Origin: Luteimonas sp. YGD11-2
GTDB taxonomy: Bacteria > Pseudomonadota > Gammaproteobacteria > Xanthomonadales > Xanthomonadaceae
Reading direction: 5' to 3'
DNA: 64,000 bases
Assembly (NCBI RefSeq): GCF_004118975.1
Contig: NZ_CP035376.1
Span: 620,001 to 684,000 of the forward strand
The notes under the pieces were generated by a model. The model searched no databases. It was not told the DNA's origin and saw nothing but the letters and a program-made list of their open reading frames with translations. Positions 47,922-64,000 of the stretch are shown here, in pieces. Position numbers and translations under genes: made by a program. Position 1 is the first letter of the stretch, and each line of letters begins with the position of its first letter.

Positions 47922-49100
47922 ATGTCCGACAAATCCCCCGCGCATGACGAGCGCGCGCTTTCGCTCGCGACCCTGGCGATCCACGGCGGTCAGCATCCGG
48001 ATCCGTCCACCGGCGCGGTGATGACGCCGATCTACGCGACGTCCACCTACGCCCAGTCGAGCCCCGGCGAGCACCAGGGCTTCGAGTACTCGCGCACGCA
48101 CAACCCCACGCGCTTCGCCTATGAGCGCGGCGTCGCCGCACTCGAAGGCGGCAGCCGCGGCTTCGCGTTCGCTTCGGGCCTGGCCGCGTCGTCAACTGTG
48201 CTGGAACTGCTGGATGCCGGCAGCCACATCATCGCCATGGACGACGTCTACGGCGGCACCTACCGCCTGTTCGAGCGTGTCCGCCGCCGCACCGCCGGGC
48301 TGGAAGTGAGCTGGGTCGACCTCAGCGACACCGACGCATTCGAGGCGGCGATCCGCCCCGAAACCCGGATGGTCTGGATCGAGACGCCGACCAACCCGAT
48401 GCTGAAGCTGGTCGACATCGAGAAGATCGCCGCGATCGCCCGAAAGCGCGGCCTGCTGGTGGTGGTCGACAACACCTTCGCCTCGCCGATCCTGCAGCGT
48501 CCACTCACGCTGGGTGCCGACCTGGTGCTGCACTCGGCAACCAAGTACCTCAACGGCCACTCCGACATGGTCGGCGGCATGGTCGTGGTTGGTGACAACG
48601 CCGAGCTCGCCGAGCAGCTGGCGTTCCTGCAGAACTCGATTGGCGGCGTGCAGGGTCCGTTCGACAGCTTCCTCGCCCTGCGTGGCCTGAAGACGCTGCA
48701 CCTGCGCATGAAGGCGCACTGCGAGAATGCGCAGGCGATCGCCGAGTTCCTGCAGGGGCATTCCGCCGTGGAGCAGGTGATCTATCCGGGGCTCGCGTCG
48801 CATCCGCAGCACGAGCTGGCAAAGAAGCAGATGGACGGTTTCGGCGGCATCGTCTCGGTGCGCGTCAAGGGCGGCTACGAGGCGGCCAAGCGCTTCTGCG
48901 AGCGCACGCAACTGTTCACCCTGGCCGAATCGCTGGGCGGCGTGGAGAGCCTGGTCAACCACCCGGCGGTGATGACGCATGCGTCGGTGCCGGTGGAGCG
49001 GCGGGCGACGCTGGGGATTGCGGATGATCTGGTGCGGTTGAGTGTGGGGGTGGAGGCCGCGACCGATCTGACTTCCGATCTCGACGCAGCCCTGCGATAA
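47922..49100 (+). CDS. Cystathionine gamma-lyase/gamma-synthase family PLP enzyme
   Basis: 392-residue Cys/Met metabolism PLP enzyme. The PLP lysine is Lys208 (LVLHSATKYLNGHSDMVGG). The substrate-binding region EYSRTHNPTRFAYERGVAAL and GSHIIAMDDVYGGTYRLF are conserved. Sequence alone does not separate gamma-lyase (cysteine formation) from gamma-synthase (methionine synthesis); pairing with cystathionine beta-synthase favours gamma-lyase activity, giving homocysteine to cysteine conversion. Starts MSDKSPAHDERALSLATLA. Confidence 0.93.
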   Translation: MSDKSPAHDERALSLATLAIHGGQHPDPSTGAVMTPIYATSTYAQSSPGEHQGFEYSRTHNPTRFAYERGVAALEGGSRGFAFASGLAASSTVLELLDAGSHIIAMDDVYGGTYRLFERVRRRTAGLEVSWVDLSDTDAFEAAIRPETRMVWIETPTNPMLKLVDIEKIAAIARKRGLLVVVDNTFASPILQRPLTLGADLVLHSATKYLNGHSDMVGGMVVVGDNAELAEQLAFLQNSIGGVQGPFDSFLALRGLKTLHLRMKAHCENAQAIAEFLQGHSAVEQVIYPGLASHPQHELAKKQMDGFGGIVSVRVKGGYEAAKRFCERTQLFTLAESLGGVESLVNHPAVMTHASVPVERRATLGIADDLVRLSVGVEAATDLTSDLDAALR

Positions 49101-49160: not shown

Positions 49161-49721
49161 CTACTTCGTCAGAGGACATTCGATCCGCACGCCTTCCCGG
49201 CCTGCCTTGCTCAATGTGTCCCAATAGAAAGCGCAGGCGAGCATGTTCGTGCTCGAGCTCTTCATCGCCGACATGGCGTTCACCATGAGCTGGGGTTGCC
49301 CGACGATCTCATCCAGCCTGCTCTGGTCCACATCCTCTTCGGCGAACTGCAACGTGCCCGAGCCATCGAGCTCGTGCACGTCCTTCAACAGTTCGACGAG
49401 TCCGAATTCATTGGTCGGAGCCGAGGAGCCCGGAGCAGGATCACCGCCAAGAATCACCTCGACGCGCACCTTTTCCCCTGCGCTGGCCAGTGCCTGCTCC
49501 GCGTCGGGGGGCAGCGTCACCTCGATCTTGACTCCAGTCACCTCGGGCGGCGGGCCCGCAGGGGAGTTCGCCACCTGGGCCGGCACCGTCTGATCCGCGC
49601 TCGACGCAGTGGCGGTCTGGTCGCCATCCGCGTCGGTATCGGCTTCCCGGCGCGCACAGCTGGCGAGCAGCACGGCGAGCGCGAGGAAGGCTGTCATTTT
49701 CGTTAGAGCGTTGAGCTTCAT
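49161..49721 (-). CDS. Unknown lipoprotein at the end of the type II secretion operon
   Basis: 186 residues. The signal peptide ends in the lipobox LLASC with lipidation at Cys22, followed by an acidic, Thr/Ser/Ala-rich linker and a compact C-terminal domain (VRVEVILGG, LQFAEEDVDQSRLDEIVGQP, STNMLACAFYWDTLSKAG) with two further cysteines. I do not recognise a family. It starts 13 bases after the secretin stop, so it is last in the same transcript. Position suggests a secretin-associated factor (pilotin-like) or substrate-specific component, but nothing in the sequence proves it. Confidence 0.75.
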   Translation of the reverse strand: MKLNALTKMTAFLALAVLLASCARREADTDADGDQTATASSADQTVPAQVANSPAGPPPEVTGVKIEVTLPPDAEQALASAGEKVRVEVILGGDPAPGSSAPTNEFGLVELLKDVHELDGSGTLQFAEEDVDQSRLDEIVGQPQLMVNAMSAMKSSSTNMLACAFYWDTLSKAGREGVRIECPLTK

Positions 49722-49734
49722 CGGGTAGTCCGCG

Positions 49735-51897
49735 TCAATCAGAAATGGGAGGGGAAAGCAGCAACGGCGCAGGGGGACGCTGAGGGGGCAGTACCGGGCC
49801 TGGCGGTTGTACCGGCAACGCCTCTTCCAGATCCAGCAGATCGAAGCGGTCGGCGACCACTCGGCTGAGCTCGGTTGCCTGATCCTGTGATTCCACGATG
49901 TACGGAATGATCAGGAGCACGAGCTCGGTCTTTGCCTGCTTCAAGGTCTGACTCTTGAAAAGATTGCCGAGGATGGGAACATCCTTGATGAACGGTATTC
50001 CGCTCTCGGTATTGGTGTTGCTCGTCGATATCAGACCGGCCATCACCACGGACCCGCCATCCCGAAGGCTGAGGGAAGTGTTGAGGCTGCGATTGAAAAT
50101 CGACGGCGATCCGGCCGTTGAGTCGGAGCTCAGCGGAAGCGCCTCGCTGACTTCCTGGCTGATCTCCAGGTCGATCCGGTCATCCGAATAGACCGTCGGC
50201 TTGATGTTGAGAATTACGCCCGTCTTCCGATACTGGATCGACTGCAGCAGGTTGGTGTTGCCATCCGTCTGCTGGTTCGAGGTCGTGGTCATGGTGACTG
50301 TCGGAACCTCCGTGCCGACGTCGATGCTCGCCTCGCTGCCGCTTTTCACCAGCAGCCTCGGCGTGGAAAGGATGCTGACACGGTTGTCGGATGCGAGCGC
50401 CGTCAATGCAAGCCGGTTCTGACCTGCAACATCAACCAGGTAGGTCAGCCCACCTGATGGTCCCGGGTTGTTTCCGCCGGAGCCGCTACCGCTGTAGATG
50501 CTGCCGTCGAAGCGCCCCCAGCCATTCTTGGCGAACCAGCTCAGGCCGTACTCGAGATCGTCATTGAGCGTTACCTCCGCGATCGTGACTTCGATCATGA
50601 CCTGGCGAGGCGCGCGGTCCATCTGGCGGATCAAGCCGAGCATCCGTTCCCATTGCGCGGGATCACCCTGGAAGATGAGCGCATTGCGTGGCTCGTCGAC
50701 GAGGATCGACGAGCCCGGTGCCGTGCGAACTGCGGCTGCACCCTGGCTGGGCGCTCCGCCAGCAGTCCCTGCCCCCGCCGTAGCGGCCGGAGTGTTGGCG
50801 GTGGTCCCCTGAAGGCTGTTGGTAAGCACACTGGCAATGTCGATCGCCTTCGTGTTTCGCACCTGGTAATAGAACATTGATTCGGAACCGGCGTGCTGGC
50901 TCGGCCGATCGAGTTCGCGTGCCCACGAGACCGCGTAATTCAACGTGTCCTGGCTGGTCGCGAACACGATGACGGAATTCGCTGCAGCGATCGGCAGCAC
51001 GATCACGCTTGCGGGCGAACCGGCGCTACGGTTTGCGCTGTACCCCTGGAGATTGAGGACTTCAGTGAGCCGGTTTGAAAGTTCGTCAGCCGTCATGAAG
51101 ACAGGCTCGAGCCGTGTGCTGACCCGACCCCGCATCAGCGGCCTGTCAAAGACACGAAGTGCTTCGATTGCCTGACGCACCTGGCTCGGGCGCCCCTGCA
51201 GCAGGATTGCATTGCGCGCGGTCTCCTCGGTGATGCGCAACTCCTGGCCGAACAACGTCGTCAACCAGCGAACAGCGTCACCGCTACGGACCACCTCAAG
51301 CTCGATCAGCTGGAACACGGGCCGATGGGAAGTGGGAACACTTGGTAATGCGCGACCGCTGACAACCAAAGGGGGGGTCGCGGACGTGCCCTGCGCCGCC
51401 ATCCGCAACTGCACCAGGCCACCCTCGAACTCCACGGACACCCCATATTCCGCCAGCACCTGTCGTGTGAGGCGGAACAGTTCGATCGGGCGCAGGTTCT
51501 CCTGGGTGTTGAGCGTCACCAGCTCCTGAAGTTGCGCTACCTGTGGGTCGATGTTGAGGTTCAGGCCGAGGATATTGTTGAACACCTCGTTTGCCAGAAC
51601 GGTGATCGGCAAGTCCTGTACGTTGATTCGTACGGGCGTGTCGGGCATCGGCGGCAACATTTCGCCGGAGCCCAGTGAAACGCTTGCACTGCTGGGCATG
51701 TCCACGCGCGGCGTGGCGCTCTGGACCAGATCCGTGGGCTGTGCGCTGTTGTCCACGATGGGGTCGGCCTGCACATACTGCGGCTTCGCTGGAACAGCGA
51801 GCGGAGCTGGTGCGCGGGTCCGTTCGTGTGGGCTTGCGCAGGCCGCCAGGAGCGTAACGGCAAACGCGATGCCGATGGTTGGGCGATAAAAGGTCAT
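49735..51897 (-). CDS. gspD: Type II secretion secretin GspD (lipoprotein type, XpsD-like)
   Basis: 720-residue outer-membrane secretin forming the exit channel. It is a lipoprotein (lipobox LLAAC, Cys20), as XpsD is. After a Pro/Ala-rich linker come the N0 domain (about 88-150, VRINVQDLPITVLANEVFN), the N1-N3 modules (170-440, with TARNAILLQGRPSQVRQAIE and GSSILVDEPRNALIFQGDP) and the secretin core (450-670: ASDNRVSILSTPRLLVKSGS, VDVGTEVPTV-type loop, GGSVVMAGLISTSNT, IPFIKDVPILGNLFKS). The Pro-rich C-terminal tail may be an S-domain substitute. Ten bases downstream of the gspN-like gene. Confidence 0.93.
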   Translation of the reverse strand: MTFYRPTIGIAFAVTLLAACASPHERTRAPAPLAVPAKPQYVQADPIVDNSAQPTDLVQSATPRVDMPSSASVSLGSGEMLPPMPDTPVRINVQDLPITVLANEVFNNILGLNLNIDPQVAQLQELVTLNTQENLRPIELFRLTRQVLAEYGVSVEFEGGLVQLRMAAQGTSATPPLVVSGRALPSVPTSHRPVFQLIELEVVRSGDAVRWLTTLFGQELRITEETARNAILLQGRPSQVRQAIEALRVFDRPLMRGRVSTRLEPVFMTADELSNRLTEVLNLQGYSANRSAGSPASVIVLPIAAANSVIVFATSQDTLNYAVSWARELDRPSQHAGSESMFYYQVRNTKAIDIASVLTNSLQGTTANTPAATAGAGTAGGAPSQGAAAVRTAPGSSILVDEPRNALIFQGDPAQWERMLGLIRQMDRAPRQVMIEVTIAEVTLNDDLEYGLSWFAKNGWGRFDGSIYSGSGSGGNNPGPSGGLTYLVDVAGQNRLALTALASDNRVSILSTPRLLVKSGSEASIDVGTEVPTVTMTTTSNQQTDGNTNLLQSIQYRKTGVILNIKPTVYSDDRIDLEISQEVSEALPLSSDSTAGSPSIFNRSLNTSLSLRDGGSVVMAGLISTSNTNTESGIPFIKDVPILGNLFKSQTLKQAKTELVLLIIPYIVESQDQATELSRVVADRFDLLDLEEALPVQPPGPVLPPQRPPAPLLLSPPISD

Positions 51898-51906
51898 GAA
51901 GCTCTC

Positions 51907-52380
51907 TTATTCCGAAGCAGCTGGCGTGACATCACACGAGCCCGACGAGCGGATGGGTTGCTTGCGGTGCATCTGGTAAACGCGTGTGCAGCCTTCGAGG
52001 TCAACTGTGATTGTGTCGCGGTCGATGCTGACCAGCCTGCTTCCATCCGGCAGCAATTCCCCGGCGACGAGGCGGCGCGCCTGCCTGGTCCCCGCTTCAA
52101 TCACCAGTGCCTGCGTAAGTCCGGCTTCGGTCAGCCCGGCAAGCTGCCATGCCACGGCTGCAGACGGTGCGTCCCCACCCTCCGATGCGTCCGCCTGCCA
52201 TCGCAACTTCCCTGCCTCGGTGAAGGCGTCGGAGGAGAAGCGGGCGATCTGCTCGCGCGGGGGGAGCGACCATTGGCCCACATCGTCACGTTGACGCGGG
52301 ATGGGCGGCGGTGGCCACGAGGCACCAATGATAAGGCCTCCTATGATGCAAGCTGCCACGACAAGGTACACACGCCTCAT
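51907..52380 (-). CDS. gspN: Type II secretion protein N/C (XpsN-like, HR domain)
   Basis: 157 residues with one N-terminal membrane helix (RRVYLVVAACIIGGLIIGAS), a Pro-rich linker and a periplasmic domain resembling the GspC homology region (WQLAGLTEAGLTQALVIE, RRLVAGELLPDGSRLVSIDR). In Xanthomonas the gene at this place, xpsN, links the inner-membrane L/M proteins to the secretin D and replaces GspC. It overlaps gspM by four bases. Shorter than XpsN as I recall it, so only the core is kept. Confidence 0.78.
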   Translation of the reverse strand: MRRVYLVVAACIIGGLIIGASWPPPPIPRQRDDVGQWSLPPREQIARFSSDAFTEAGKLRWQADASEGGDAPSAAVAWQLAGLTEAGLTQALVIEAGTRQARRLVAGELLPDGSRLVSIDRDTITVDLEGCTRVYQMHRKQPIRSSGSCDVTPAASE

Positions 52381-52970
52381 GGCGTTGCCTGCTGGTCAGC
52401 CGGCGCAATCCGGTAGAACGCATTGACGCCAAAGCTCGCCAGCTGATTGACGTCACTGCGAATCTCCGCGCTCTCGATCACGACGAGATTGGCACTGCTC
52501 TCGATCTGTCGTGCCACATTGAGGGCCTCGCGTGCCGTCATCCCGGCGCGCAGGGTGGCGCGAATCCGGAACAGGCCTGGCATCGATTCCACCGGGGCCG
52601 CGCCCTCCACGGAAATGCGAACGCTTTCGGTGTCGGCGATGCTGTTGCCCAGCCCGGCAAGCCAGCCCTGCACGGCGGCCTGCGCAACGCCGCTGGTGGG
52701 GGCAGATGGAATCTCCGCCAGAAGGCTTTCGTGCAGCTCAGCCGACTCGCGCTGGCGCGCGATCCAGACGTCCTGGCCCTGCAACGAACGGATCTGGCGC
52801 AGACGCGCCTCCTGCTCGATGGACATGTCCTGCGCGTGCGATCGCAGACTCTCGAGTCCCTGCAAGCCAAGGACGGCAGCGAGAACGCCGATCACCAACA
52901 ATGCCCATCGCAACCAGGGGGTCGCGTTGAGCTGCTCGCGAAGCTTGGCAGTCAGCTGGGCTCGATTCAC
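52377..52970 (-). CDS. gspM: Type II secretion protein M (GspM/XpsM)
   Basis: 197-residue inner-membrane protein: a short cytoplasmic start, one helix (WLRWALLVIGVLAAVLGLQG), a coiled-coil segment (QEARLRQIRSLQGQDVWIAR) and a C-terminal ferredoxin-like periplasmic domain (GLFRIRATLRAGMTAREALN). Stabilises GspL and contacts pseudopilins. Four-base overlaps on both sides. Confidence 0.87.
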   Translation of the reverse strand: MNRAQLTAKLREQLNATPWLRWALLVIGVLAAVLGLQGLESLRSHAQDMSIEQEARLRQIRSLQGQDVWIARQRESAELHESLLAEIPSAPTSGVAQAAVQGWLAGLGNSIADTESVRISVEGAAPVESMPGLFRIRATLRAGMTAREALNVARQIESSANLVVIESAEIRSDVNQLASFGVNAFYRIAPADQQATP

Positions 52971-54061
52971 GTCTCACCAGTCGGCGGCAGCACGGGCGTG
53001 ATAAGCGCGCGGATAACGATCTCGCCACCACGCCCGACATCAGTGGTAACTCCTTCGAAATAGGGCGAGGCTTCCCAGGTTTCGACCAGGGACTGCGGAT
53101 CCGCGTTTGCTCCTGACAATGTGATCTCCACGCGTTCCGGCACCGGCTGGCTCCACTGAGAGATGTGCGCATCGCCGGGAACAAGCCGGGCGGCTTCGGC
53201 CAGCAGCTCGATGAGCGAGCGGGGAGCGCGCAGGGCGATCAGCTGGTCGATGGCAACCCGATGGCCGTCAGCGGCTTCGCGCGCCGCAAGAATCCGCTTG
53301 AGCGGATCGTCGAGCTGCTCCGCTGCGCGCTCGGCCTGCAAGGTGTCCAGGTGACTCCTCAACAGACTGCCCGTCTGTACTGCCGCAATGGTAACCACCA
53401 GCAAGGCTGCCGCGAGAGCGGCAGTGGGTAGATGCCGCTCCAGTCCGGAGAGCTGCAAGGACGCGCGCCCCGTGCCCGTCCGAGCGCCCCAAGGCCTGGC
53501 CTGCGTACTCGACTCCACTGCCGCGGGCGCGCCCACCCCCGGGGATACCTGCCCTGCGGCGCGGACATAGCTGTGCCATTGCTCGGCGGTGGGTAACGTG
53601 GGCCACCATCGACTGGCGGTCAGCGATCCTTCGTGCCAGACGCGCCCCTCGAAACCTTCGTGAAGCGCGAGAAGCTCGGCCCCGGTGGTATGGGGACTTC
53701 TGACATACAGGGGTTCGGGCTCGAAGCGGACCTTGCCCACGCGCACCTGCCTTGACGACAGCAGTTCCTCGACCCTCGATCGCGACCAGTACCACACTGC
53801 GGCCCGGCCATCGGGCCCCCAGGCAACGCCAAACTCCGGGTCCGGGAACGGCGCGGCACGCCGTACGGCCAGGCCGACGAAATCGCGCTGCTGCTTCTCC
53901 GGAACCCGGCTGGCATCCACGTGCACGAACAGGCAAAGTGCCCGCCCGACGAGGCAGACGAGGGCATCACTGCCTTCACTCTCCAGCGTCAGGTTCGAGT
54001 CTTTTCCCAGCAGGATCCGGCGGGGTGAAAAGCGGCGTTGAAGGCGCTTCACCCAGGGCAT
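52967..54061 (-). CDS. gspL: Type II secretion protein L (GspL/XpsL)
   Basis: 364 residues from the ATG at 54061. The cytoplasmic actin-like domain (about 1-200) binds GspE; one membrane helix lies near 215-235 (LPTAALAAALLVVTIAAVQ), followed by a periplasmic coiled coil and a ferredoxin-like domain (VEITLSGANADPQSLVETWE). The start overlaps the gspK end by 86 bases; no nearer in-frame start codon is seen, and the first 15 residues (MPWVKRLQRRFSPRR) are very basic. Confidence 0.86.
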   Translation of the reverse strand: MPWVKRLQRRFSPRRILLGKDSNLTLESEGSDALVCLVGRALCLFVHVDASRVPEKQQRDFVGLAVRRAAPFPDPEFGVAWGPDGRAAVWYWSRSRVEELLSSRQVRVGKVRFEPEPLYVRSPHTTGAELLALHEGFEGRVWHEGSLTASRWWPTLPTAEQWHSYVRAAGQVSPGVGAPAAVESSTQARPWGARTGTGRASLQLSGLERHLPTAALAAALLVVTIAAVQTGSLLRSHLDTLQAERAAEQLDDPLKRILAAREAADGHRVAIDQLIALRAPRSLIELLAEAARLVPGDAHISQWSQPVPERVEITLSGANADPQSLVETWEASPYFEGVTTDVGRGGEIVIRALITPVLPPTGET

Positions 54062-55082
54062 CGTCCGATTGATTCTCACGCGCGAGGATGACCTCGTAGT
54101 CGATTTGCCAAGGCGGACCACCGATGGCGTAAGGCGTCAGGCTCCAGTGAACGAGTCTCTTAACGCCTCGACGACGATCCCACAGGATAAGGTTGCCGGC
54201 CCGGTTTGGAAAGAGGGTGACGTTGTCCTCCATGAAAGGCGGGATGGGGAACAATTCCCGCACCTGCCAAACGGAGACGATCGGGGAGTGCACCCGGTAT
54301 GAAACCAGTCGCTGTGCGCTGGCCTCGTCCATGCCCGGGATCAGCGCCAGCACGCTTGCGGGAGCACTGTTGAGGTTGATGGTGCCACCGCGGTGCGCGG
54401 AAAGAATGCCCAGAAGCCGGTCATCGTCCAGGGACGCAAGCGCGTCATCCCATTGCAGGATGCGCCGGAACTCCAGGGGCGTGGCAACGGCCCGGTTGGG
54501 CGGCGGCGGGCGGCCAGCCTTCTCGTAATGCTCCGCTTCGGCCCCGTCCAGGCGGTGGAGTGAGTCGGGATCCTGATAGTCGAGCCGTTTGGCTTCCAGG
54601 CCGGACCACTGTTCGGGTGGCACCCCCAGCTTGGAGTAGAAGGCCTCGAGCAGTGCAGGCGAAGCCCAGTTCGGGCTCAGCAGCCCTGCATCGTCCTGCA
54701 GTGCGAACGCCGCGTTTCCGAGGCCCCGGTAGCTGGTCCCATCGAGCCGGATGTCGTTGCCCGTGGGTAGCGCACTTGCGCCATCCGCATCGTCATCGAG
54801 CATTGCAGCCGTTGCAGCAGGCGATGGGAGCGCCGCAAGGCCGGCAATGTTTCGCCGATGGGTGGAGAGCATGAACAGCAGCGTCTCCTGCGTGGAGCGC
54901 ATATCGAGATCGCCCTCGAAGCGCTCGATCTCGACCTGGGCTTCTTCCACTGCGCGCCGCCCGGACGTGGCAACCGCCGACGCGAGTACGGTCAGCACCA
55001 CGACCAGCGCCAGCACGATCACGAGTACGAAGCCGCCTTCTGACTGGCGGCGCCGCTTCGGACTAATCCGTCTCGGGTTCAT
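53976..55082 (-). CDS. gspK: Type II secretion minor pseudopilin K (GspK/XpsK)
   Basis: 368-residue tip pseudopilin. The basic leader ends at Gly-Phe (SEGGFVLVIVLALVVVLTVL), and Glu at +5 is absent as is usual for GspK. The GspK core includes DDAGLLSPNWASP and the helix-hairpin motif GGTINLNSAPASVLALIPGM, then VSVWQVRELFPIPPF. Caps the pseudopilus with I and J. Its 3' end overlaps gspL by 86 bases and its start overlaps gspJ by 20. Confidence 0.92.
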   Translation of the reverse strand: MNPRRISPKRRRQSEGGFVLVIVLALVVVLTVLASAVATSGRRAVEEAQVEIERFEGDLDMRSTQETLLFMLSTHRRNIAGLAALPSPAATAAMLDDDADGASALPTGNDIRLDGTSYRGLGNAAFALQDDAGLLSPNWASPALLEAFYSKLGVPPEQWSGLEAKRLDYQDPDSLHRLDGAEAEHYEKAGRPPPPNRAVATPLEFRRILQWDDALASLDDDRLLGILSAHRGGTINLNSAPASVLALIPGMDEASAQRLVSYRVHSPIVSVWQVRELFPIPPFMEDNVTLFPNRAGNLILWDRRRGVKRLVHWSLTPYAIGGPPWQIDYEVILARENQSDDALGEAPSTPLFTPPDPAGKRLEPDAGE

Positions 55083-55650
55083 ACATCACCGGAACCGGAT
55101 TGCGCATGCCGATCACCGGGGCCAGCCAGACCCGCTGATCCCCAAGTGCGCCTTCAAGAACCAGACCCACGGCGGCCGGCAGGTGGTCGTTGAGGCCCAG
55201 CGCGGGTGGCCATTGCGGGTGCAGGCCACCTTCCGGGTCGAGATACTCGAATCGGGCGTCGGCGACTTCACCCAGAGGCAGCTCCAGCGCCTGGCTCCCT
55301 TCCTCCAACGACAGGACCACCACGCCACCCGCCCCGCGTTCGATCCGCCAGCTCACCGCGGTGGCGCCACCCTGTGTTGCGAGCACCGGTTGCAGTGTCA
55401 CGCCTGTCCACTGGTCCCCTTGGCCCGCGAAGGGCGTATCTTCCACCGGGTGCAGCCCCCGGACTGACGATTCCAGCCAGCTGCGCGACAGCATCATCTG
55501 CCGGCCCTGCAGGGTCAGGGTTTCGATGGCGGCATTTGCGCGTCGCCATTGCCCCAGTGACTGGAACCCGAGCGCCAGGGCCATGCTGGCGATGACCAGT
55601 ACCACCAGCATTTCCAGCAGGGTCATGCCGGACTCACTGGACCTGCTCAT
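55063..55650 (-). CDS. gspJ: Type II secretion minor pseudopilin J (GspJ/XpsJ)
   Basis: 195 residues with a type III signal: SESGMTLLEMLVVLVIASMA, where cleavage precedes Met and Glu+5 is kept. The mature part contains a beta-rich GspJ domain (QMMLSRSWLESSVRGLHPVE). The ATG at 55650 overlaps the gspI stop by four bases. Confidence 0.9.
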   Translation of the reverse strand: MSRSSESGMTLLEMLVVLVIASMALALGFQSLGQWRRANAAIETLTLQGRQMMLSRSWLESSVRGLHPVEDTPFAGQGDQWTGVTLQPVLATQGGATAVSWRIERGAGGVVVLSLEEGSQALELPLGEVADARFEYLDPEGGLHPQWPPALGLNDHLPAAVGLVLEGALGDQRVWLAPVIGMRNPVPVMYEPETD

Positions 55651-56096
55651 TCTTCTTCCAGGTTGATGGGGCGGGTGATCTCCCATCCGGCCTTTCGGAA
55701 GTTGAAGGTCCGTACCACGCGCTCGTCGCGCAGGGCCTCCACCTCGACGTCGTAGAGGATGAAGTCGAACTGGGTGGGAAACCCGACGCTGCTCAGCCCT
55801 GGCCGACGCTCCGTCAGTTCCGTGGCCTGCCAGCGCACCTGCAACGGCCCGATGTCGCGCTCACCCCTGGGGTGTTCGAAAGGATTGATGTCCTCGACCA
55901 GTGCCAGTGCGGTGCGGGCGTCCTCGAGCGACCGCGCCTGTGCCTGCGCCCGGGTCAGTGCGAAGGTGGATGTGGACAGCCAGCTGTAGAGCGCCAGCAG
56001 CGACGTGGCCATGACCACCATCGCCACGATGGCCTCCAGCAGGGTGAACCCGGTCGCGCGCGCACGTACGGGCGGTCGGCAGGCGCGCACCGTCAC
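55647..56096 (-). CDS. gspI: Type II secretion minor pseudopilin I (GspI/XpsI)
   Basis: 149 residues. The prepilin motif is ATGFTLLEAIVAMVVMATSL with Gly-Phe cleavage and Glu+5. Start is GTG at 56096, overlapping the gspH TGA as GTGA; the open frame reaches further upstream but only into gspH. The remaining domain (ALTRAQAQARSLEDARTALA, WQATELTERRP) fits GspI. Confidence 0.9.
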   Translation of the reverse strand: MTVRACRPPVRARATGFTLLEAIVAMVVMATSLLALYSWLSTSTFALTRAQAQARSLEDARTALALVEDINPFEHPRGERDIGPLQVRWQATELTERRPGLSSVGFPTQFDFILYDVEVEALRDERVVRTFNFRKAGWEITRPINLEEE

Positions 56097-56506
56097 TGGC
56101 CGTCCGCAGCAACGCGGCGCACCGCGCAGAACGGTGCTGCCACACGGAAATCGATGAGCTGGCGCGTGGTATGCAGGATGCCCGCGGCATCCGAACACGC
56201 ACCGTTTGCGCGCACCGTCAGTGGTGAGTGCATTTCGAGGCGCCAGCCGTCGGGCAGCTCGACGTGCGTCGCATCCGGTATCGCCAGGTCCTGGGTCGTA
56301 GGGTCCGGCAGGACAAGTTCGCGTCCGGCCGCGCGCGCGCGCAGCGGCAGCGCGCTGATGGACTGCAGCACCTCGTCCACCTCACCGGCTTCGCGCCAGC
56401 TGGTGATCATCCGGTAGCCCGCCGGGGCCACCAGCGACGTCGCCAGCGCGAGCAGGGCAACCACCACGAGGATTTCCAGCAGGGTATAGCCCCGCACGCG
56501 ACTCAC
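56093..56506 (-). CDS. gspH: Type II secretion minor pseudopilin H (GspH/XpsH)
   Basis: 137 residues. Prepilin motif VRGYTLLEILVVVALLALA, with Tyr instead of Phe at +1 and Glu+5. A GTG start at 56506 overlaps the gspG stop (GTGA); no ATG fits. The C-terminal domain includes LPDGWRLEMHSPLTV and two cysteines. Confidence 0.88.
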   Translation of the reverse strand: MSRVRGYTLLEILVVVALLALATSLVAPAGYRMITSWREAGEVDEVLQSISALPLRARAAGRELVLPDPTTQDLAIPDATHVELPDGWRLEMHSPLTVRANGACSDAAGILHTTRQLIDFRVAAPFCAVRRVAADGQ

Positions 56507-56958
56507 GAATCCGGCAGTTGACCGACATCGGCGTCGTGGCCCTCGCCACCGCGCTGGCCGTCGGCACCGAACGAGTACAGGGTGAAGGAATGGTGCCCGG
56601 ACGGCCTGGGCGAGTACTGGTACGCATTGCCCCATGGATCCTGCGGCACGCCGTCTTCCAGGTAAGGACCCTGCCAGCGCTGCGCCATCGCAGGGTCTGT
56701 CGGGCGTTCCGTCAGCAGCCGGAGGCCTTCCTCCTGCGTCGGCACCCGGCCGATGTCCAGGCGCATCGTTTCCAGAGCCCCGCGCAGCATCCGCACCTGG
56801 GTCTCCGCGGTCTGCACCTTGGCGCGGTCCGCCTGGCTGAAGAGCCGCGGCCCGACCAGGCCCATGATGAGGCCGATGATCACGAGGACCACGATCATCT
56901 CGAGCAGGGTGAACCCGCGCGCCAGGCGGGGCTTGGAGGGATGGCGGCGCATACGCAT
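56503..56958 (-). CDS. gspG: Type II secretion major pseudopilin G (GspG/XpsG)
   Basis: 151-residue major pseudopilin that forms the periplasmic piston. Prepilin motif LARGFTLLEMIVVLVIIGLI; the conserved LDIGRVPTQEEGLRLL, WQGPYLEDGVPQDPWGNAYQ and calcium-site loop SFGADGQRGGEGHDADVG are complete. First gene of the G-to-D operon and divergent from gspE. ATG at 56958 or the one two codons later; the difference is trivial. Confidence 0.96.
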   Translation of the reverse strand: MRMRRHPSKPRLARGFTLLEMIVVLVIIGLIMGLVGPRLFSQADRAKVQTAETQVRMLRGALETMRLDIGRVPTQEEGLRLLTERPTDPAMAQRWQGPYLEDGVPQDPWGNAYQYSPRPSGHHSFTLYSFGADGQRGGEGHDADVGQLPDS

Positions 56959-56985
56959 GTCGGAGATCCAGGACGGGACCCGCCC

Positions 56986-56991
56986 ATTCTA
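56986..56991 (-). promoter_or_regulatory. -10 box of the gspG operon
   Basis: On the minus strand TAGAAT lies 28 bases before the gspG ATG. No good -35 in the GC-rich upstream stretch. Confidence 0.45.
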
Positions 56992-57030
56992 TCCGCGCGC
57001 AGGCGTGCGGGGAGGGGTTGTAGTCGGGCC

Positions 57031-57068
57031 ATGACACAATACGCGCCCGAAATGCCGCCGGATCCGTA

Positions 57069-57069
<1 letters not shown>
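57031..57069 (+). CDS. Possible 12-codon upstream frame coupled to gspE
   Basis: MTQYAPEMPPDP ends in TAA that overlaps the gspE ATG as TAATG. gspE itself has only a weak Shine-Dalgarno (GGATC), so reinitiation after this frame could drive gspE translation. GGGGAGGGG lies 13 bases before its ATG, rather far. Confidence 0.3.
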
Positions 57070-58777
<1,708 letters not shown>

Positions 58778-58778
<1 letters not shown>

Positions 58779-59986
58779 TGGCGAGGTTCCGGTTCAAGTC
58801 GATCAACGCCGAAGGGGCGGTGCTCGAGGGCGACATCGCTGCCGCGACCGAGCGTGAAGCGGCGCGGCTGCTCGAGCGCCGGGGGTTGTCGGTGGTATCG
58901 CTGCGCCCGGACAAGGTCCAGGCCCTCCCGGGCAGGCGGGGCCTGCGCGAGCGCCGCATGCGCGGTCGCGACGTCATCCTGGCGCTGCATGAACTCTCCA
59001 CCCTGCTGGAGTCCGGGGTGGGCCTGGCCGAGGCGGTCGGCGCGCAGTCCCGGTCGGCACACCATCCGCGCCTGCTCGCGGCCTTCGAGACCATTTCGGC
59101 CGCTCTGCGTCGAGGTCAGTCGTTCTCGCAGGCGTTGCTCGACACCGGCCTCCCGTTGCCGCCATACGTCGGGACCCTGGTGCTCAGCGGTGAGAAATCC
59201 GGCCAGCTGGGCAAGGCGCTGCGGGATGCGGTGAGCCAGATGGAATACGACCAGCAGGTGCAGTCGGAGATCCGCCAGGCGCTGACCTACCCAGCGGTGC
59301 TGGTGACCGCGGGCATCGGGGCGGTCATCCTGATGTTCACCTTCGTCGTCCCCAAGTTCGCCACGCTGCTGACGCGCGCGGACGAGCTTCCATGGCTCGG
59401 GTGGGCCGTGCTCAGTACCGGCATGTTCGCCCGTGAATACTGGTGGGTGCTATTGGTGCTGCTGGCAGGGGCAGGCGCTGCAGCCTGGCGCTCGCTGCAG
59501 GATCCGCAGGCACGGGCCAGGGGTTACGAGCGCCTGGAATCGCTGCCGGTCATCGGCGCCTGGCGGGTGGAGGCCGAGACCGCGGCGTGGGCGCGCATCC
59601 TCGCCACGCTGCTGGGCAACCGGGTGCCGCTGCTGGATGCCTTGTCACTCGCCCAGGCCGGCGTGCGCGCGCCCGGCCGGCGCGCACGCCTGGATGACGT
59701 GGTGCGCAACGTCCGCGCCGGCGCGACGCTTGCGGACTCCCTGGAGGAGCAGGCCACCCTCACCGCCACCGGCTACAACCTGATCCGAGTGGGCGAACGC
59801 TCGGGCGAGTTGCCCGCCATGCTGCAGTCACTCGCACGGCTGTGCGAAAACACCGGTCGCGCCCGCATGAAACAGTTCCTTGCGCTATTGGAGCCGCTGG
59901 CGATTTTGCTCATAGGTTCGGTGATTGGCGTGATCATGATCGGGATCATCCTGGCCATCACCAGCGCGAACGATATCGCCGTCTAG
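58778..59986 (+). CDS. gspF: Type II secretion inner-membrane platform protein F (GspF/XpsF)
   Basis: 402-residue platform protein with two cytoplasmic GspF repeats (ILALHELSTLLESGVGLAEA; WARILATLLGNRVPLLDALS) and three membrane helices (about 173-195, 220-242, 375-398, the last EPLAILLIGSVIGVIMIGII). The conserved SGEKSGQLGKALRD and VGERSGELPAML motifs are intact. Ends the E-F unit; the exported-protein gene follows 387 bases later in the same direction. Confidence 0.95.
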
Positions 59987-60265
59987 CACGACATCAGCTA
60001 ACGCGCTGAGCGCGGTGCTCCGCACGTCGGCAAAATTGGCCAAAACCCTTGCTTTTTCTGTGAAGGGCGCGTCAATTTTCCGTCGCATGTGACGATGTAA
60101 GCAGTCCCATGATGATGAATAGGCCCGTCTCCTAGTCAGGTAGTCGTCCTGATCCTGAAGAGGCGGGATCGTGCTTGACGCTGCACTAAGGGTTGGTTAA
60201 CGTTCGGCGGTAGCTTGCGGTTCGGGGGGTCCGGGGGACATGTCGTCTGTCCAGGCTTCAAGGAT

Positions 60266-60277
60266 GCAACCGGTTGC
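60266..60277. promoter_or_regulatory. 12-bp perfect palindrome in the leader
   Basis: GCAACCGGTTGC. ACCGG occurs again at 60316-60320 within GGTAACCGGTAAG. Possible regulator site or short RNA stem. Confidence 0.35.
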
Positions 60278-60334
60278 CAGAGGGTTCGCCCGACGGTACC
60301 GGGGAGAACGGGTAACCGGTAAGAGCTACTTGCA

Positions 60335-60350
60335 AACTAAACGTTTAGTT
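60335..60350. promoter_or_regulatory. 16-bp perfect palindrome just before the ribosome-binding site
   Basis: AACTAAACGTTTAGTT is perfectly self-complementary over 16 bases, AT-rich in a GC-rich genome, and ends 13 bases before GGAG (60364-60367). With no loop it forms only a poor RNA hairpin, so a dimeric DNA-binding protein is the likelier reader. Confidence 0.5.
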
Positions 60351-60373
60351 GCCTACACCTAATGGAGTTACAG

Positions 60374-61987
60374 ATGACGAAGTTCAACAAGACCCTGCTC
60401 GCCGCTGCTGTGGCCGCCGCGGTCGCGCTGCCGGGCCTCGCCTCGGCGGCCTCGCTCTCCTATGAGGCGAACCAGCAGATCACGTTCGCCAAGGACCTGA
60501 TCGTCAATAACGGCACCACCATCAACACACCCAGCGAGCTCACCTTGCGCGCCACCGGCGATGACGCCACGCGCATCGCGACTGTTACGCCGGCCAACAA
60601 TGCTGTTACGGTCAAGGTAACGCTGACCAACGGTGCGAAGTTTGACGCCACCGCTGACGCCCGTACCTTCGTGGAGGGCTTCCTTGTTGGTGCCCAGCTG
60701 GGCGGCACCGGCCAGAACCTCGTTGGCCTCCTGGTTGGCGCGCCGTACTACTCGGCTGACGGCCAAGAACTGAATTTCACCTTCAATGCTCCGGGGCAGG
60801 GCGCGGTGGGCGCAGCTGGCGACTACGCGCTGCGTCTTAACAGCATGCAGGTGACGAATCTGGTTCAGGGTCTTTTTACCCAGAATTTTATCGGTGCGGA
60901 AATCACTGCCCAGAACTCGGTCGGTCAGCAGATTCTTGCTGCGGGTGAAACGATTGCCCGTTCCGTTTGGGGTTTGAACATTACGTCCAGCCCGGCTGCT
61001 AACACCGACACGCGCATTGACGTTGCTGGCGGCGGTACCGGTGCCAACGCATACGGCCGCAAGACCCGCTTCTCGCCGACGGGCTCCGTGGGTGGCGCAA
61101 ACGTTCCTGCTGCCGTCAACACGCTGTGGTCGCCTGGCTCGATCGTCATCGACATCGCCAAGGCCATGGAGACCGGTGCGGGTGCGACCGAGAGCTATGT
61201 CAACAACTTCAGTGCTGTGGCTACTAATCCGCAGTACAACGTTGTTGCCACCGCGCAGATCAAGATCGACGTGAAGGGCTCGAACCTGAGGGCGTTCGGC
61301 GGCGGCGATGCTTTCCTTAATTCCGCTGCAAGCTGTGATGCGACGGGCAGCCTCGCCGGCGTCGTGAACGCCGCGGGCGATACGATCGCATTCGAGGCAG
61401 CAGCCAGCAATGATCTGTTCGCCAACGTCACCAATGCTTCACCGACTCCCAGCACCGTGTACGTCTGCCTGCGTGCCGATGATAGCGATGAGATGATTGC
61501 GCAGGCGCTGTCGGCCAGCGTCAATGTCGATTACCAGCTGTCGACCCAGCGTCGCAACCCGCCGGCCGTTAACGTTAACCTGTCGCCGCTGCAGATCAAC
61601 GGCAGCACGATGGTGTTCCAGAACGTCAACCCGGGCGCCAACAGCCGTGCGCAGTCGTTCCTCCGCATCACCAACAACACTGCGGACGTCTGCCCGGTCA
61701 CGCTTGACGCCAAGGACGACGCAGGTCGCCTGAGCGGTGAGGTCACCTTCAACCTGCCGGCGCACGCCTCGCAGCACTTCAACTCGGACGAGCTGGAGAA
61801 CGGTTCCTCGAAGGGCAACGGCTCCTTCGGCGACGGCACCGGCCGCTGGTACGTGCGCGTCACCGCCGAGTGCGATTCGTTCAAGGCTTCGGCGCTGAAC
61901 CGCAACCTCGACACCGGCGTGGTCACCAACCTGACTCCTGAGAAGGAACAGGGCATCGAGTGGCTGACCCCGAGCACCCGTCTGTAA
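60374..61987 (+). CDS. Exported 537-residue protein, possible surface-layer-like T2SS substrate
   Basis: A classical signal peptide (MTKFNKTLLAAAVAAAVALP, cleavage at LASA-ASL) precedes a Gly/Ala/Asn/Thr-rich, predicted all-beta mature protein with four cysteines. The C-terminal domain (about 430-515) has SFLRITNNTADVCPV, KDDAGRLSGEVTFNLPA, HFNSDELENGSSKGNG and GDGTGRWYVRVTAECD, resembling a beta-sandwich seen at the end of many extracellular proteins (recalled, not searched). Start at 60374 is set by GGAG six bases upstream; ATG at 60362 has none. The middle third (60840-61300) uses more A/T-ending codons than neighbours. Long leader, strong terminator and composition suggest abundant expression. 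Placement after gspE-gspF suggests a dedicated substrate; this is inference. Confidence 0.8.
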   Translation: MTKFNKTLLAAAVAAAVALPGLASAASLSYEANQQITFAKDLIVNNGTTINTPSELTLRATGDDATRIATVTPANNAVTVKVTLTNGAKFDATADARTFVEGFLVGAQLGGTGQNLVGLLVGAPYYSADGQELNFTFNAPGQGAVGAAGDYALRLNSMQVTNLVQGLFTQNFIGAEITAQNSVGQQILAAGETIARSVWGLNITSSPAANTDTRIDVAGGGTGANAYGRKTRFSPTGSVGGANVPAAVNTLWSPGSIVIDIAKAMETGAGATESYVNNFSAVATNPQYNVVATAQIKIDVKGSNLRAFGGGDAFLNSAASCDATGSLAGVVNAAGDTIAFEAAASNDLFANVTNASPTPSTVYVCLRADDSDEMIAQALSASVNVDYQLSTQRRNPPAVNVNLSPLQINGSTMVFQNVNPGANSRAQSFLRITNNTADVCPVTLDAKDDAGRLSGEVTFNLPAHASQHFNSDELENGSSKGNGSFGDGTGRWYVRVTAECDSFKASALNRNLDTGVVTNLTPEKEQGIEWLTPSTRL

Positions 61988-62032
61988 GAAGGGCGCTCAC
62001 CGGTCGTCTTCTGACAACCGGCGCTAGATAAG

Positions 62033-62063
62033 GCGGGGGGCGCAAGCCCCCCGCTTCTTTTGT
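62033..62063 (+). terminator. Strong intrinsic terminator of the exported-protein gene
   Basis: A 9-bp stem GCGGGGGGC, loop GCAA, GCCCCCCGC, followed by TTCTTTTGT. Ideal for a highly transcribed single gene. Confidence 0.93.
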
Positions 62064-62523: not shown

Positions 62524-63261
62524 TTACGGCGCGCTGTCCGCGTCTTCGTCCACCGGCGGGGCGCCGAGCTTGTCGTCCATACCCGCAAGAACGACAGCAT
62601 AGGCCTCGGCCTGTTTCACCCACACGTCGGCATACGCTGCAAACGCCGGGTCGTCCGGGAGGGTGGGGCAGGCGGTTGCGCGGCAACGCGTCGCCAGCAT
62701 CTGCTGCGCCTCACGCTCGATCCCCGGGCGCACCTGCTGGATGGACGCGGCATAACGCGCTTCCAGCCCGTCTGATGCTTCCTGCAGTGCGGCACGCTGC
62801 GCTTCCACACTGCTCAACCCGGACTGCCAGCTCGTCGCTCCGCTACGGTCGAGCAGGGCGTGCGCGCGCAGCGCCCAGGTCACCCGCATCTGCCAGCTAC
62901 CGTATTCCACGGCGGTGCGAACTTCCTTGTTCGAGCAAGACGTATCGGCGGGCTGCGGAGCGGCCGGTTCGCCGTTCTGCCAGGCAAGCCACGCGCGACG
63001 CTCCTCCGCTGTCGCCGCAAGCGCAGCGCGCGCGGCAGGGTCGAGCCAATTGCAACGCGTGTCGAGCGCAAGCATGCGATCGAGTTCTTCGACCTGCCGC
63101 CCTGCCAGCTCACGCTGCTGCGCGGTGGCCGGAGCCGGAACCTCGAACGTCGGCAGGGCTTCCACGGGCACGTCCTCGACAACGGGGGTCGTCGGGGCGC
63201 AGGCGGCGACGCCCAGCGTGAGTGCGATGGCGGCGGCGAGACGGTGGGTCAGTCGGTTCAT
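62524..63261 (-). CDS. Unknown lipoprotein
   Basis: 245 residues. Signal peptide with lipobox GVAAC, lipidation at Cys21. The mature part is mainly helical (ATAQQRELAGRQVEELDRML, EYGSWQMRVTWALRAHALLD) with four further cysteines (TRCNW, TSCSN, TRCRATACP), suggesting disulfides in the periplasm. No family recognised. Single gene, minus strand, preceding nothing obvious on the same strand for 148 bases. Confidence 0.75.
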   Translation of the reverse strand: MNRLTHRLAAAIALTLGVAACAPTTPVVEDVPVEALPTFEVPAPATAQQRELAGRQVEELDRMLALDTRCNWLDPAARAALAATAEERRAWLAWQNGEPAAPQPADTSCSNKEVRTAVEYGSWQMRVTWALRAHALLDRSGATSWQSGLSSVEAQRAALQEASDGLEARYAASIQQVRPGIEREAQQMLATRCRATACPTLPDDPAFAAYADVWVKQAEAYAVVLAGMDDKLGAPPVDEDADSAP

Positions 63262-63409: not shown

Positions 63410-64000
63410 CTAGGGGGCGAGCGTTATGCCATAACGCGCGCGGAGGGCCTCCAGCTCGCCCCGGTAAAGCAGCCCCAGCCAAGGTCGTAACGCGTTGGGC
63501 AGCCACCGCCCCTGCCACTCCCCCGCGAAGACGGTTCCGTGGGTCTGCGAGGTCCTCAACGGCGGCAGCTGCAGGAAGTCGACGACCTGCTCCACTGTCT
63601 GCTGCGGGAACTCGCGCAGATCGCGGCTACGCAGCAGCAGCACCTGGGATGGAGGGAATGCCGCGGTCAACACGTCCAACTGGGTGATATAGCGCCCCCG
63701 GGCCAGGTAACTATGGTGGCGCAGTGGCGAACCATGGCCGAAATCGTGTTCGTGTCCCTTGAGCCGCCAGCGCTCGGCCAGCAGCGCCAATGGCAACGGC
63801 AGCCATTCGTCGCCTCGACCCCGCTCCATGTAGTACTGCGAGATGGCCCGCTCCACCGGGTCGCGCAGCAGCACGATCCACCGCATGCCGGGGTTGTAGC
63901 GTGCGATCCTGCGCACGAATGCGGGGTGGAAGATGGAGATGGGGGTGGCATCGCCGTGCAGGATGCCCGAGTCGATGTCGAACCCGCCTGGAAACAATGG
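63410..64000 (-). CDS. Sulfotransferase-family protein (partial, 5' end outside window)
   Basis: At least 196 C-terminal residues. The 3'-phosphate PAPS motif is RWIVLLRDPVERAISQYYME, with the following conserved region GRYITQLDVLTAAFPPSQVL and LRSRDLREFPQQTVEQVVDF. The N-terminal 5'-phosphosulfate loop lies beyond position 64000; an apparent TTG start at 63997 is only an effect of the window edge. Such proteins transfer sulfate from PAPS to glycans, lipids or peptides; the acceptor is unknown. Confidence 0.85.
   Translation of the reverse strand, partial: PLFPGGFDIDSGILHGDATPISIFHPAFVRRIARYNPGMRWIVLLRDPVERAISQYYMERGRGDEWLPLPLALLAERWRLKGHEHDFGHGSPLRHHSYLARGRYITQLDVLTAAFPPSQVLLLRSRDLREFPQQTVEQVVDFLQLPPLRTSQTHGTVFAGEWQGRWLPNALRPWLGLLYRGELEALRARYGITLAP

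Follow-up and report, generated by a model that had tools for sequence, protein, structure and literature searches.

A candidate S-layer cassette with its own type II secretion system and a conserved leader RNA at the lipopolysaccharide locus of Luteimonas sp. YGD11-2

Introduction

What does a type II secretion system (T2SS) export when the gene of a large exported protein lies directly behind it? Surface layers (S-layers) of Gram-negative bacteria have been characterised in few lineages, and a literature search, with subscription papers mostly outside it, found no report of one in Luteimonas. We analysed a 64,000-nucleotide stretch of Luteimonas sp. YGD11-2 (hereafter the window; positions 620001-684000 of G000:C1, the one contig of a 3.2-Mb genome), in which T2SS genes adjoin the gene of a 537-residue protein. 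An earlier interpretation made from the letters alone (the sequence-only reading) had taken the two for a secretion machine linked to its own major substrate, possibly an S-layer-like coat; that link is supported, not proven, by a near one-to-one co-occurrence of secretin and coat gene.

We think it likely that the locus is an S-layer cassette set in the lipopolysaccharide (LPS) locus between metB and etfA, made up of the gene for the 537-residue protein (the coat gene), a dedicated T2SS, genes for a glycan anchor and a structured leader RNA that tunes the message. From gene content, co-occurrence, the GspE clade, the position in the LPS locus and a conserved promoter-like pair and RNA, all obtained directly, we infer the following path. 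The protein would be produced in bulk from its own promoter, pass the inner membrane via its signal peptide and be carried across the outer membrane by the adjacent T2SS; it would then assemble as a lattice-forming coat, anchored by a surface glycan, probably sulfated and exported by an ABC transporter, whose genes lie alongside, with the leader RNA adjusting the message. Candidate coat, exporter and probable sugar anchor would thus sit together in one exchangeable cassette at an LPS locus known from Xanthomonas.

Coat gene and secretin co-occur in the Lysobacteraceae

In the window, gspG-H-I-J-K-L-M-N-D and then a gene for a 186-residue lipoprotein run along the minus strand, gspE-gspF lie divergent from gspG on the plus strand, and the coat gene follows gspF on that strand (Table 1). 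Gene order and family models confirmed this layout, including the extra lipoprotein behind the secretin and the signal-peptide protein directly behind gspF, as the sequence-only reading had described it; the signal peptide was called by eye.

A protein database search gave 127 relatives of the 537-residue protein among 7993 candidates scored, 120 of them among the matches listed, at 37-100% identity; named relatives belong to Luteimonas, Pseudoxanthomonas, Stenotrophomonas, Arenimonas or plain Lysobacteraceae. Across 198 genomes of this family, the protein has a match in 18; a close secretin (>600 bits) is present in 19, namely in all of these 18 and in G007, a genome 72% complete, counted over related, non-independent genomes. 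Seventeen of the 18 hold a coat-type gene or a fragment of one; the other (G110) has the protein's C-terminal module alone, in larger open reading frames (ORFs). In ten further family genomes the secretins are weaker (241-428 bits), and none of these genomes matches the protein. No coat relatives were found on plasmids at E 0.01, and searching 369 genomes of the class with the window family returned the window's own copy and two N-terminal matches of 36-37 residues; searching with the C-terminal module added one more genome.

The leader RNA described below marks 27 copies in 395 family genomes, and 24 of these have gspE, gspF or Wzm at most 1.5 kb upstream, the three exceptions all belonging to genus g5. 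Homologues are therefore not found mostly away from T2SS genes, the outcome that the sequence-only reading had named as refuting it. The neighbourhood comparison that it had proposed points the same way: gsp genes stand beside the coat gene in all 13 loci examined at 17 kb or more outside g5, in one of them (G018) as a decayed set. Five loci share the window's arrangement, with E-F divergent from G and the coat gene behind F (the window, L031-L034), whereas in seven (L036-L041, L043) E-F-G...D share one strand and the coat gene is divergent from them. The five with inverted E-F, among 12 compared, form one group (100/100) in the GspE tree, which makes the inversion most likely a derived trait of a single sub-clade. 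In one locus of the other arrangement (G081, L041) gspE is split into two frames; there and in the G109 copy discussed below, decay and sequencing error are alike possible.

Expression signs and stepwise relation to Slr4-like proteins

Size, acidity, few cysteines, signs of strong expression and an LPS-locus setting are traits of S-layer proteins. For the 537-residue protein the coat reading is supported, not proven, by composition (Table 1), expression signs, stepwise homology to Slr4-like proteins and the LPS-locus setting. The shifted codon use that had been noted holds: the effective codon number is 35.5 at a third-position GC content (GC3) of 0.78, against 40.2-42.6 for lipo, gspM and lipo2 at equal GC3; gspE, gspF, gspG and gspH reach 34.9-36.9, but at GC3 0.81-0.87. 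GGT, GCT, GTT and CGT are enriched in the coat gene, and GGA, GGG and CGG nearly absent. The long leader was also borne out, with 387 nucleotides between the end of gspF and the coat ATG; transcription likely starts near 60210, judging from a promoter-like pair common to 18 aligned leaders, which would make the transcribed part about 160 nucleotides. This pair is absent from the output of a consensus scanner. The terminator and the two perfect palindromes, AACTAAACGTTTAGTT and GCAACCGGTTGC, are likewise present (Table 1). At the site of the first, relatives have a palindrome of different letters or none, so that its letters are not conserved; the second belongs to a conserved helix.

Neither Pfam nor NCBIfam nor the PDB holds a relative of the protein (best PDB sequence match E 0.52). 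Profile comparison led from the window family to a divergent family (100% over 480 columns), from there to the family of the L067 protein (98.2%; 97.2% without the signal peptide) and on to T2SS-linked proteins of Alteromonadaceae (99.8-99.9%; 99.6% without the signal peptide), which we call Slr4-like from their taxon, size and T2SS neighbourhood, not from Slr4's own sequence. Reversed or column-shuffled profiles reached at most 0.5% in five pairs. Homology between the window protein and Slr4-like proteins is thus supported in steps only, at the level of profiles.

The C-terminal module of about 120 residues, itself without a Pfam match, recurs in larger ORFs of other genera, often in tandem and in ORFs of 694 to 1848 codons (G004, G056, G084, G110, G049; L018-L030).

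The candidate exporter belongs to a coat-linked GspE clade

The window genome has four secretins and two further GspE genes above the family cut-off, each about 10 kb or less from another secretin; because of these, the window T2SS is an additional system of the genome. In a maximum-likelihood tree of GspE, a 100/100 branch separates a coat-linked clade from Xps-like GspE, the remaining GspE genes of the genome and the NpdA-side T2SS of Comamonas. The clade holds 12 of the 13 Lysobacteraceae coat loci and seven other rows labelled coat-linked, as well as five rows without a demonstrated coat gene (one cut contig, four stand-alone GspE); loci outside the family were picked by GspE similarity, so the clade is partly one of construction. 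The locus with split gspE (L041) entered as the longer of its two frames, which runs past the frameshift, the decayed gspE (L035) was left out, and L056 and L059 have long branches; L068 was labelled coat-linked before it was checked, and a later search turned up, 4 kb behind its gspD, a 43% match to the L067 protein.

The sequence-only reading had likened the locus to xps of Xanthomonas. We take the Xps system to share the window's gene set and much of its order, and for gene order the likeness stands; it fails for GspE, which groups, across the 100/100 branch, away from the genome's own GspE at L055, Xps-like being a label given in this analysis. The genome has an Xps-like system elsewhere.

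A class-wide GspE search gave 12 loci in 12 genomes. At four of them (the sisters G264 and G394, G530 and G542) a gsp cluster occurs together with a gene for a coat-like signal-peptide protein of about 450-590 residues, and their GspE genes are the nearest to the window's found in gsp clusters; three (G372, G478, G228; GspE at 55-57%) have no gsp cluster in the stretch examined; and in five (G270, G550, G499, G280, G332; GspE at 44-47%, gsp genes present) no coat-like gene was seen among the listed ORFs of at least 350 residues. The best 80 loci of a GspE scan of named genomes are mostly ordinary T2SS genes, two of them (L092, L101) having an Slr4-like gene by similarity; screening 14 of the 80 by composition brought in a Rhodocyclaceae locus (L091). 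Alteromonas IB21 and Glaciecola KUL10 also have coat-linked T2SS loci. At L069, L070, L071 and L089, the last from Thiotrichaceae, a coat-clade GspE occurs with no gsp cluster in the stretch examined.

The locus is part of a larger island with surface-glycan genes

The T2SS genes sit right of a CBS-type gene and metB, and the xanthomonad lps locus is described as bounded by metB and etfA (PMC524487). To the right of the coat gene come lipo2, the sulfotransferase gene ST2, the sulfotransferase-like ST1, a glycosyltransferase gene, Wzm, Wzt and more glycosyltransferase genes, then etfA-etfB; the island fills the metB-etfA interval and extends past the window's end. Among the 13 wide loci, Wzm occurs in 12, Wzt in 12, a homologue of ST1 or ST2 in 12 and ST2 in 11.

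We located metB in six congeners and examined the metB-etfA interval in four of them (G123, G605, G639, G677), of which G123 has no coat-protein or close-secretin match and the other three no leader hit, the protein comparison for these three covering that interval. In all four a Wzt-like gene lies in the interval, where nothing matches the gsp, coat or sulfotransferase genes, and the putative S-layer cassette therefore is one of several alternatives at this site. In the part of PMC524487 available to us, the Xanthomonas lps locus has the same genomic site, Wzm and Wzt, and variable content; the window differs in carrying a T2SS and a coat gene too.

Comparison with known coat systems

In the layout of its genes, the window locus resembles the A-layer locus of Aeromonas, ordered Wzm, T2SS, vapA, Wzt and a sulfotransferase-domain gene in the accessible text of PMC4483657. 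From the parts of PMC4483657 and PMC4413209 at hand, the sps T2SS (E-F-G-H-I-J-K-L-M-orf2-D) and the coat gene lie in an ABC-exported O-antigen locus, the A. salmonicida locus has a sulfotransferase-domain gene as the window island does, and the A. hydrophila gene table contains no gspC, as at the window locus. Like Sps, the window's T2SS genes adjoin the gene of a protein that is probably a coat, within an LPS/O-antigen locus with Wzm and Wzt. The window differs in its inverted E-F, extra lipoproteins and conserved leader RNA, and the likeness is one of layout, not of VapA or Sps sequences.

Slr4 of Pseudoalteromonas tunicata is an exported coat protein whose gene adjoins a T2SS, as does that of the window's proposed coat protein, which it resembles in size (PMC7821379). 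It belongs to marine Alteromonadales and its direct similarity to the window protein is weak; unlike the window's island setting, the text of PMC7821379, as far as it was available, contains no mention of sulfotransferase, glycosyl or LPS.

NpdA, a coat protein of Comamonadaceae, is also encoded next to gsp genes (PMC10765051, PMC3110197), and orthology with it was tried first because the available part of PMC10765051 lists Lysobacter species. It was rejected: against the NpdA-position protein of Comamonas odontotermitis, a single stand-in chosen by its place behind gspD in a species listed in that paper, the match had 3.5% probability over 24 signal-peptide columns only. NpdA thus has no detectable sequence relation to the window protein beyond the signal peptide, and its GspE lies in the ordinary clade; its C. 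odontotermitis copy does have Wzm- and Wzt-type genes downstream, as at the window locus. Behind the NpdA-position gene there (L172:10705-13849) we saw genes for a PpiC-type prolyl isomerase, an ABC-2 permease and a Wzt-type ATPase; a link of the NpdA locus to glycan export does not appear in the available part of PMC10765051.

Wzm and Wzt occur at the coat-linked T2SS loci of Comamonas NpdA, G264, G530 and L090, and a sulfotransferase gene lies behind the coat gene also in L067 and L073 (Pfam, above cut-off). Alteromonadaceae-type coat loci have sulfotransferases, with no Wzm or Wzt match in the stretches examined. Coat-linked T2SS loci, whose coat proteins need not be related, thus repeatedly accompany surface-glycan genes (for Aeromonas, Wzm and Wzt are from the literature), which suggests a rule that T2SS-exported coats come with their own glycan anchor. 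Coat genes accompanied by their own exporter are known from Aeromonas and Pseudoalteromonas; here the candidate pair would form a cassette of the xanthomonad LPS locus, with a leader RNA for which we found no described counterpart.

A conserved leader RNA precedes the coat gene

A block of about 63 nucleotides is common to all 27 leaders; the promoter-like pair is common to the 18 that were aligned. We built a covariance model from 13 loci and scanned the 395 family genomes with stricter filters, E-values being rough after a short calibration. There were 27 matches at E <1e-6, one per genome, and none between 9e-7 and 4e-4. Of the 14 strong matches outside the model, 13 lie directly before a coat gene and one (G707) at a contig end; in two of the 14 genomes (G109, G187) the coat gene had been found beforehand by protein search. 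Fourteen weaker matches have E from 4e-4 to 0.01, and 12 genomes have such matches alone; in the three of the 14 that were examined, no coat or gsp gene was near. At the coat genes of G182 and G018 the search did not detect the element. Rfam gave no match up to E 0.5 in the window's stretch and, over seven loci, one below-cut-off miRNA match outside the element; the same literature search found no description of this RNA.

Two mutually exclusive pairings are predicted, each with support. Pairing I joins 60269-60277 with 60312-60320 (ACCGGUUGC with GCAACCGGU, plus three loop-closing pairs) and is formed in 92.3% of alignment cells, with replacements of C-G by U-A and of G-C by A-U. Pairing II joins the same 5' strand (60270-60283) with a middle block (60290-60302; CCGG with CCGG, GCC with GGU, and a variable stem) and is formed in 85.5% of cells, with 16 both-side changes against 6.6 in shuffles. 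In five sequences the 5' strand changes from CCGG to CUGG (once CUGA) and both its partners to CCAG, so that both pairings are kept at that position.

Pair-type covariation is modest: both-side changes were matched by 121 of 500 shuffles for pairing I and 103 of 500 for pairing II, and further pair types by 179 and 486 of 500. Stronger support comes from duplex energies. For the variable inner stem of I and the variable stem of II, permuting partners among eight non-redundant sequences equalled the sequences' own energies in 17 and 21 of 20000 cases, and composition-kept shuffles did so in 0 of 2000, compared with 707 and 1063 of 2000 for two unpredicted control pairings.

Predicted energy is lower for pairing I (loop block open) than for II (3' strand open) in 27/27 leaders, and when folding is left unconstrained, 21 leaders use their 5' strand for pairing I and 6 for pairing II, which may therefore be an early fold that is later displaced. 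Pairing I ends 43 nucleotides upstream of the GGAG ribosome site, a distance that would favour an effect on message stability, or a co-transcriptional signal, over direct masking of the start. The loops of all 27 leaders contain GGUACC, which is self-complementary, so that two transcripts could kiss there; its flanking letters vary as U-A, U-G and C-G.

We tentatively propose that the leader is a new class of cis-regulatory RNA of Lysobacteraceae, in which an early hairpin (CCGG..GCC with GGU..CCGG) is displaced once the 3' strand GCAACCGGU has been made, leaving the invariant GGUACC exposed in a loop. Such an RNA switch, linked to an S-layer and its private exporter, could tie coat synthesis to secretion or to the state of the envelope, and would offer a handle on mass production of one exported protein without choking its exporter. 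The block could instead be a set of DNA sites for a regulator: its three blocks with CCGG or CCAG cores change jointly in the same five sequences, GGTACC is itself palindromic, and the fold energies are unremarkable (z -0.5 to -3.8 against simple shuffles). However, G-U pairs are frequent where a DNA dyad would break, complementarity within each sequence far exceeds that of shuffles for the two variable stems but not for the two unpredicted pairings, and the element lies downstream of the conserved promoter-like pair, which makes DNA sites quite improbable.

Alternative explanations for the locus

Several observations weigh against an S-layer cassette. In genus g5, no gsp gene was found on the coat contigs of G004 (17.3 kb), G084 (17.6 kb) and G056 (7.6 kb). 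In G018 (L035), residues 24-120 of gspE are followed by 44 bases and then by gspM from residue 92, with F to L gone and the coat ORF (497 residues) open, and in G109 (L036) the coat gene is split over two overlapping frames. With the signal peptide removed, the direct profile link to Slr4-like proteins falls to 3.7% for the divergent family and 0.9% for the window family, and the Slr4-like label is itself indirect. NpdA loci show unrelated coat proteins served by other T2SSs, and ST1 of the window genome is sulfotransferase-like at 22.2 bits, under the cut-off of 27.

The 537-residue protein might instead serve, in large amount, as secreted matrix or adhesive material with a T2SS dedicated to it, and form no crystalline coat. 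This would suit the tandem copies of its C-terminal module in long ORFs, possible adhesins, and the lack of a solved relative, the lattice being a prediction. Its size, acidity, few cysteines, expression signs and LPS-locus setting nevertheless fit S-layer proteins. Slr4, the nearest characterised kind by neighbourhood, is described as both S-layer and matrix protein in the accessible part of PMC7821379; on balance we consider a matrix or adhesive protein unlikely. The T2SS might also mainly export other substrates, with the coat gene a passenger in a hypervariable LPS island, as the coat genes of G004 and G084 away from gsp genes and the unmatched secretin of G007, in an incomplete genome, could indicate; against such a passenger, protein and close secretin co-occur in 18/18 and 18/19 genomes, and the genome's other secretins and GspE genes could serve enzymes, and we find it very doubtful. 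An S-layer cassette is preferred because of this co-occurrence, the GspE clade, the profile chain, the Wzm, Wzt and sulfotransferase neighbours, the Aeromonas precedent and the contrast with congeners.

Gene assignments and neighbouring features

Pfam or NCBIfam models recognised the secretin, GspE, GspF, GspG and GspK, whereas GspH, GspI, GspJ and GspM had weak family matches and were assigned from gene order. No separate gspC was seen at the locus; the gspN product weakly matches the GspC family. We propose that the 186-residue lipoprotein is a pilotin-like helper.

Table 1. Features of the window, with the evidence for each
Feature	Position	Strand	Evidence or remark
metB homologue	47922..49100	+	left border of xanthomonad LPS locus; flank conserved in relatives and congeners
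186-residue lipoprotein behind secretin	49161..49721	-	homologue directly behind gspD in 5/5 window-type loci examined (35-57% identity), 0/5 loci of other arrangement
gspD, secretin	49735..51897	-	Pfam Secretin E 1.4e-45
gspN position	51907..52380	-	PF11356, weak GspC-type match, E 0.013
gspM	52377..52970	-	NF040576 22.6 bits, under 60-bit cut-off
gspL, start uncertain, overlaps gspK	52967..54121	-	position and conservation in relatives; no Pfam match
gspK	53976..55082	-	PF21687 28.3 bits, cut-off 26.2
gspJ	55063..55686	-	prepilin motif above cut-off; position conserved
gspI	55647..56069	-	NF047828 21.3 bits, under cut-off; position conserved
gspH	56093..56503	-	prepilin motif above cut-off
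gspG, major pseudopilin	56503..56958	-	TIGR01710 179 bits, cut-off 89
gspE, ATPase, MshE-type N-terminal domain	57069..58778	+	TIGR02533 549 bits, under its 630 cut-off; NF053729 c-di-GMP motif 53.4 bits, cut-off 38
gspF	58778..59986	+	PF00482
likely promoter TTGACG, 17 nt, TAACGT	60175..60203	+	TTGAC in 18/18 aligned leaders, with TA-rich second block
conserved leader RNA, ~63 nt	60264..60326	+	covariance model R1, 66.7 bits
palindrome GCAACCGGTTGC	60266..60277	+	perfect; overlaps 5' strand of leader RNA
palindrome AACTAAACGTTTAGTT	60335..60350	+	perfect; before ribosome site; arm of at least 8 in 5/200 leader shuffles
537-residue exported protein, proposed S-layer protein	60374..61987	+	pI 4.6, 53 kDa, 4 Cys after removing 25 residues
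C-terminal module, ~120 residues	61586..61966	+	recurs in larger ORFs of other genera
intrinsic terminator	62031..62056	+	11 pairs, T-rich tail
245-residue lipoprotein, lipo2	62524..63261	-	homologue near coat gene in G060, G705, G581; no Pfam match
sulfotransferase ST2	63410..64000, continues 249 bases past window	-	PF13469 and PF00685 above cut-off

The MshE-type c-di-GMP motif predicted in GspE, above the NCBIfam cut-off, is likewise predicted in three of five other GspE proteins checked. To the left of the CBS gene, at 43500-44300 on the minus strand, is a gene for another T2SSE-family ATPase (PF00437, E 2.6e-40), and a similar one is found near the CBS gene in L036 and L041.

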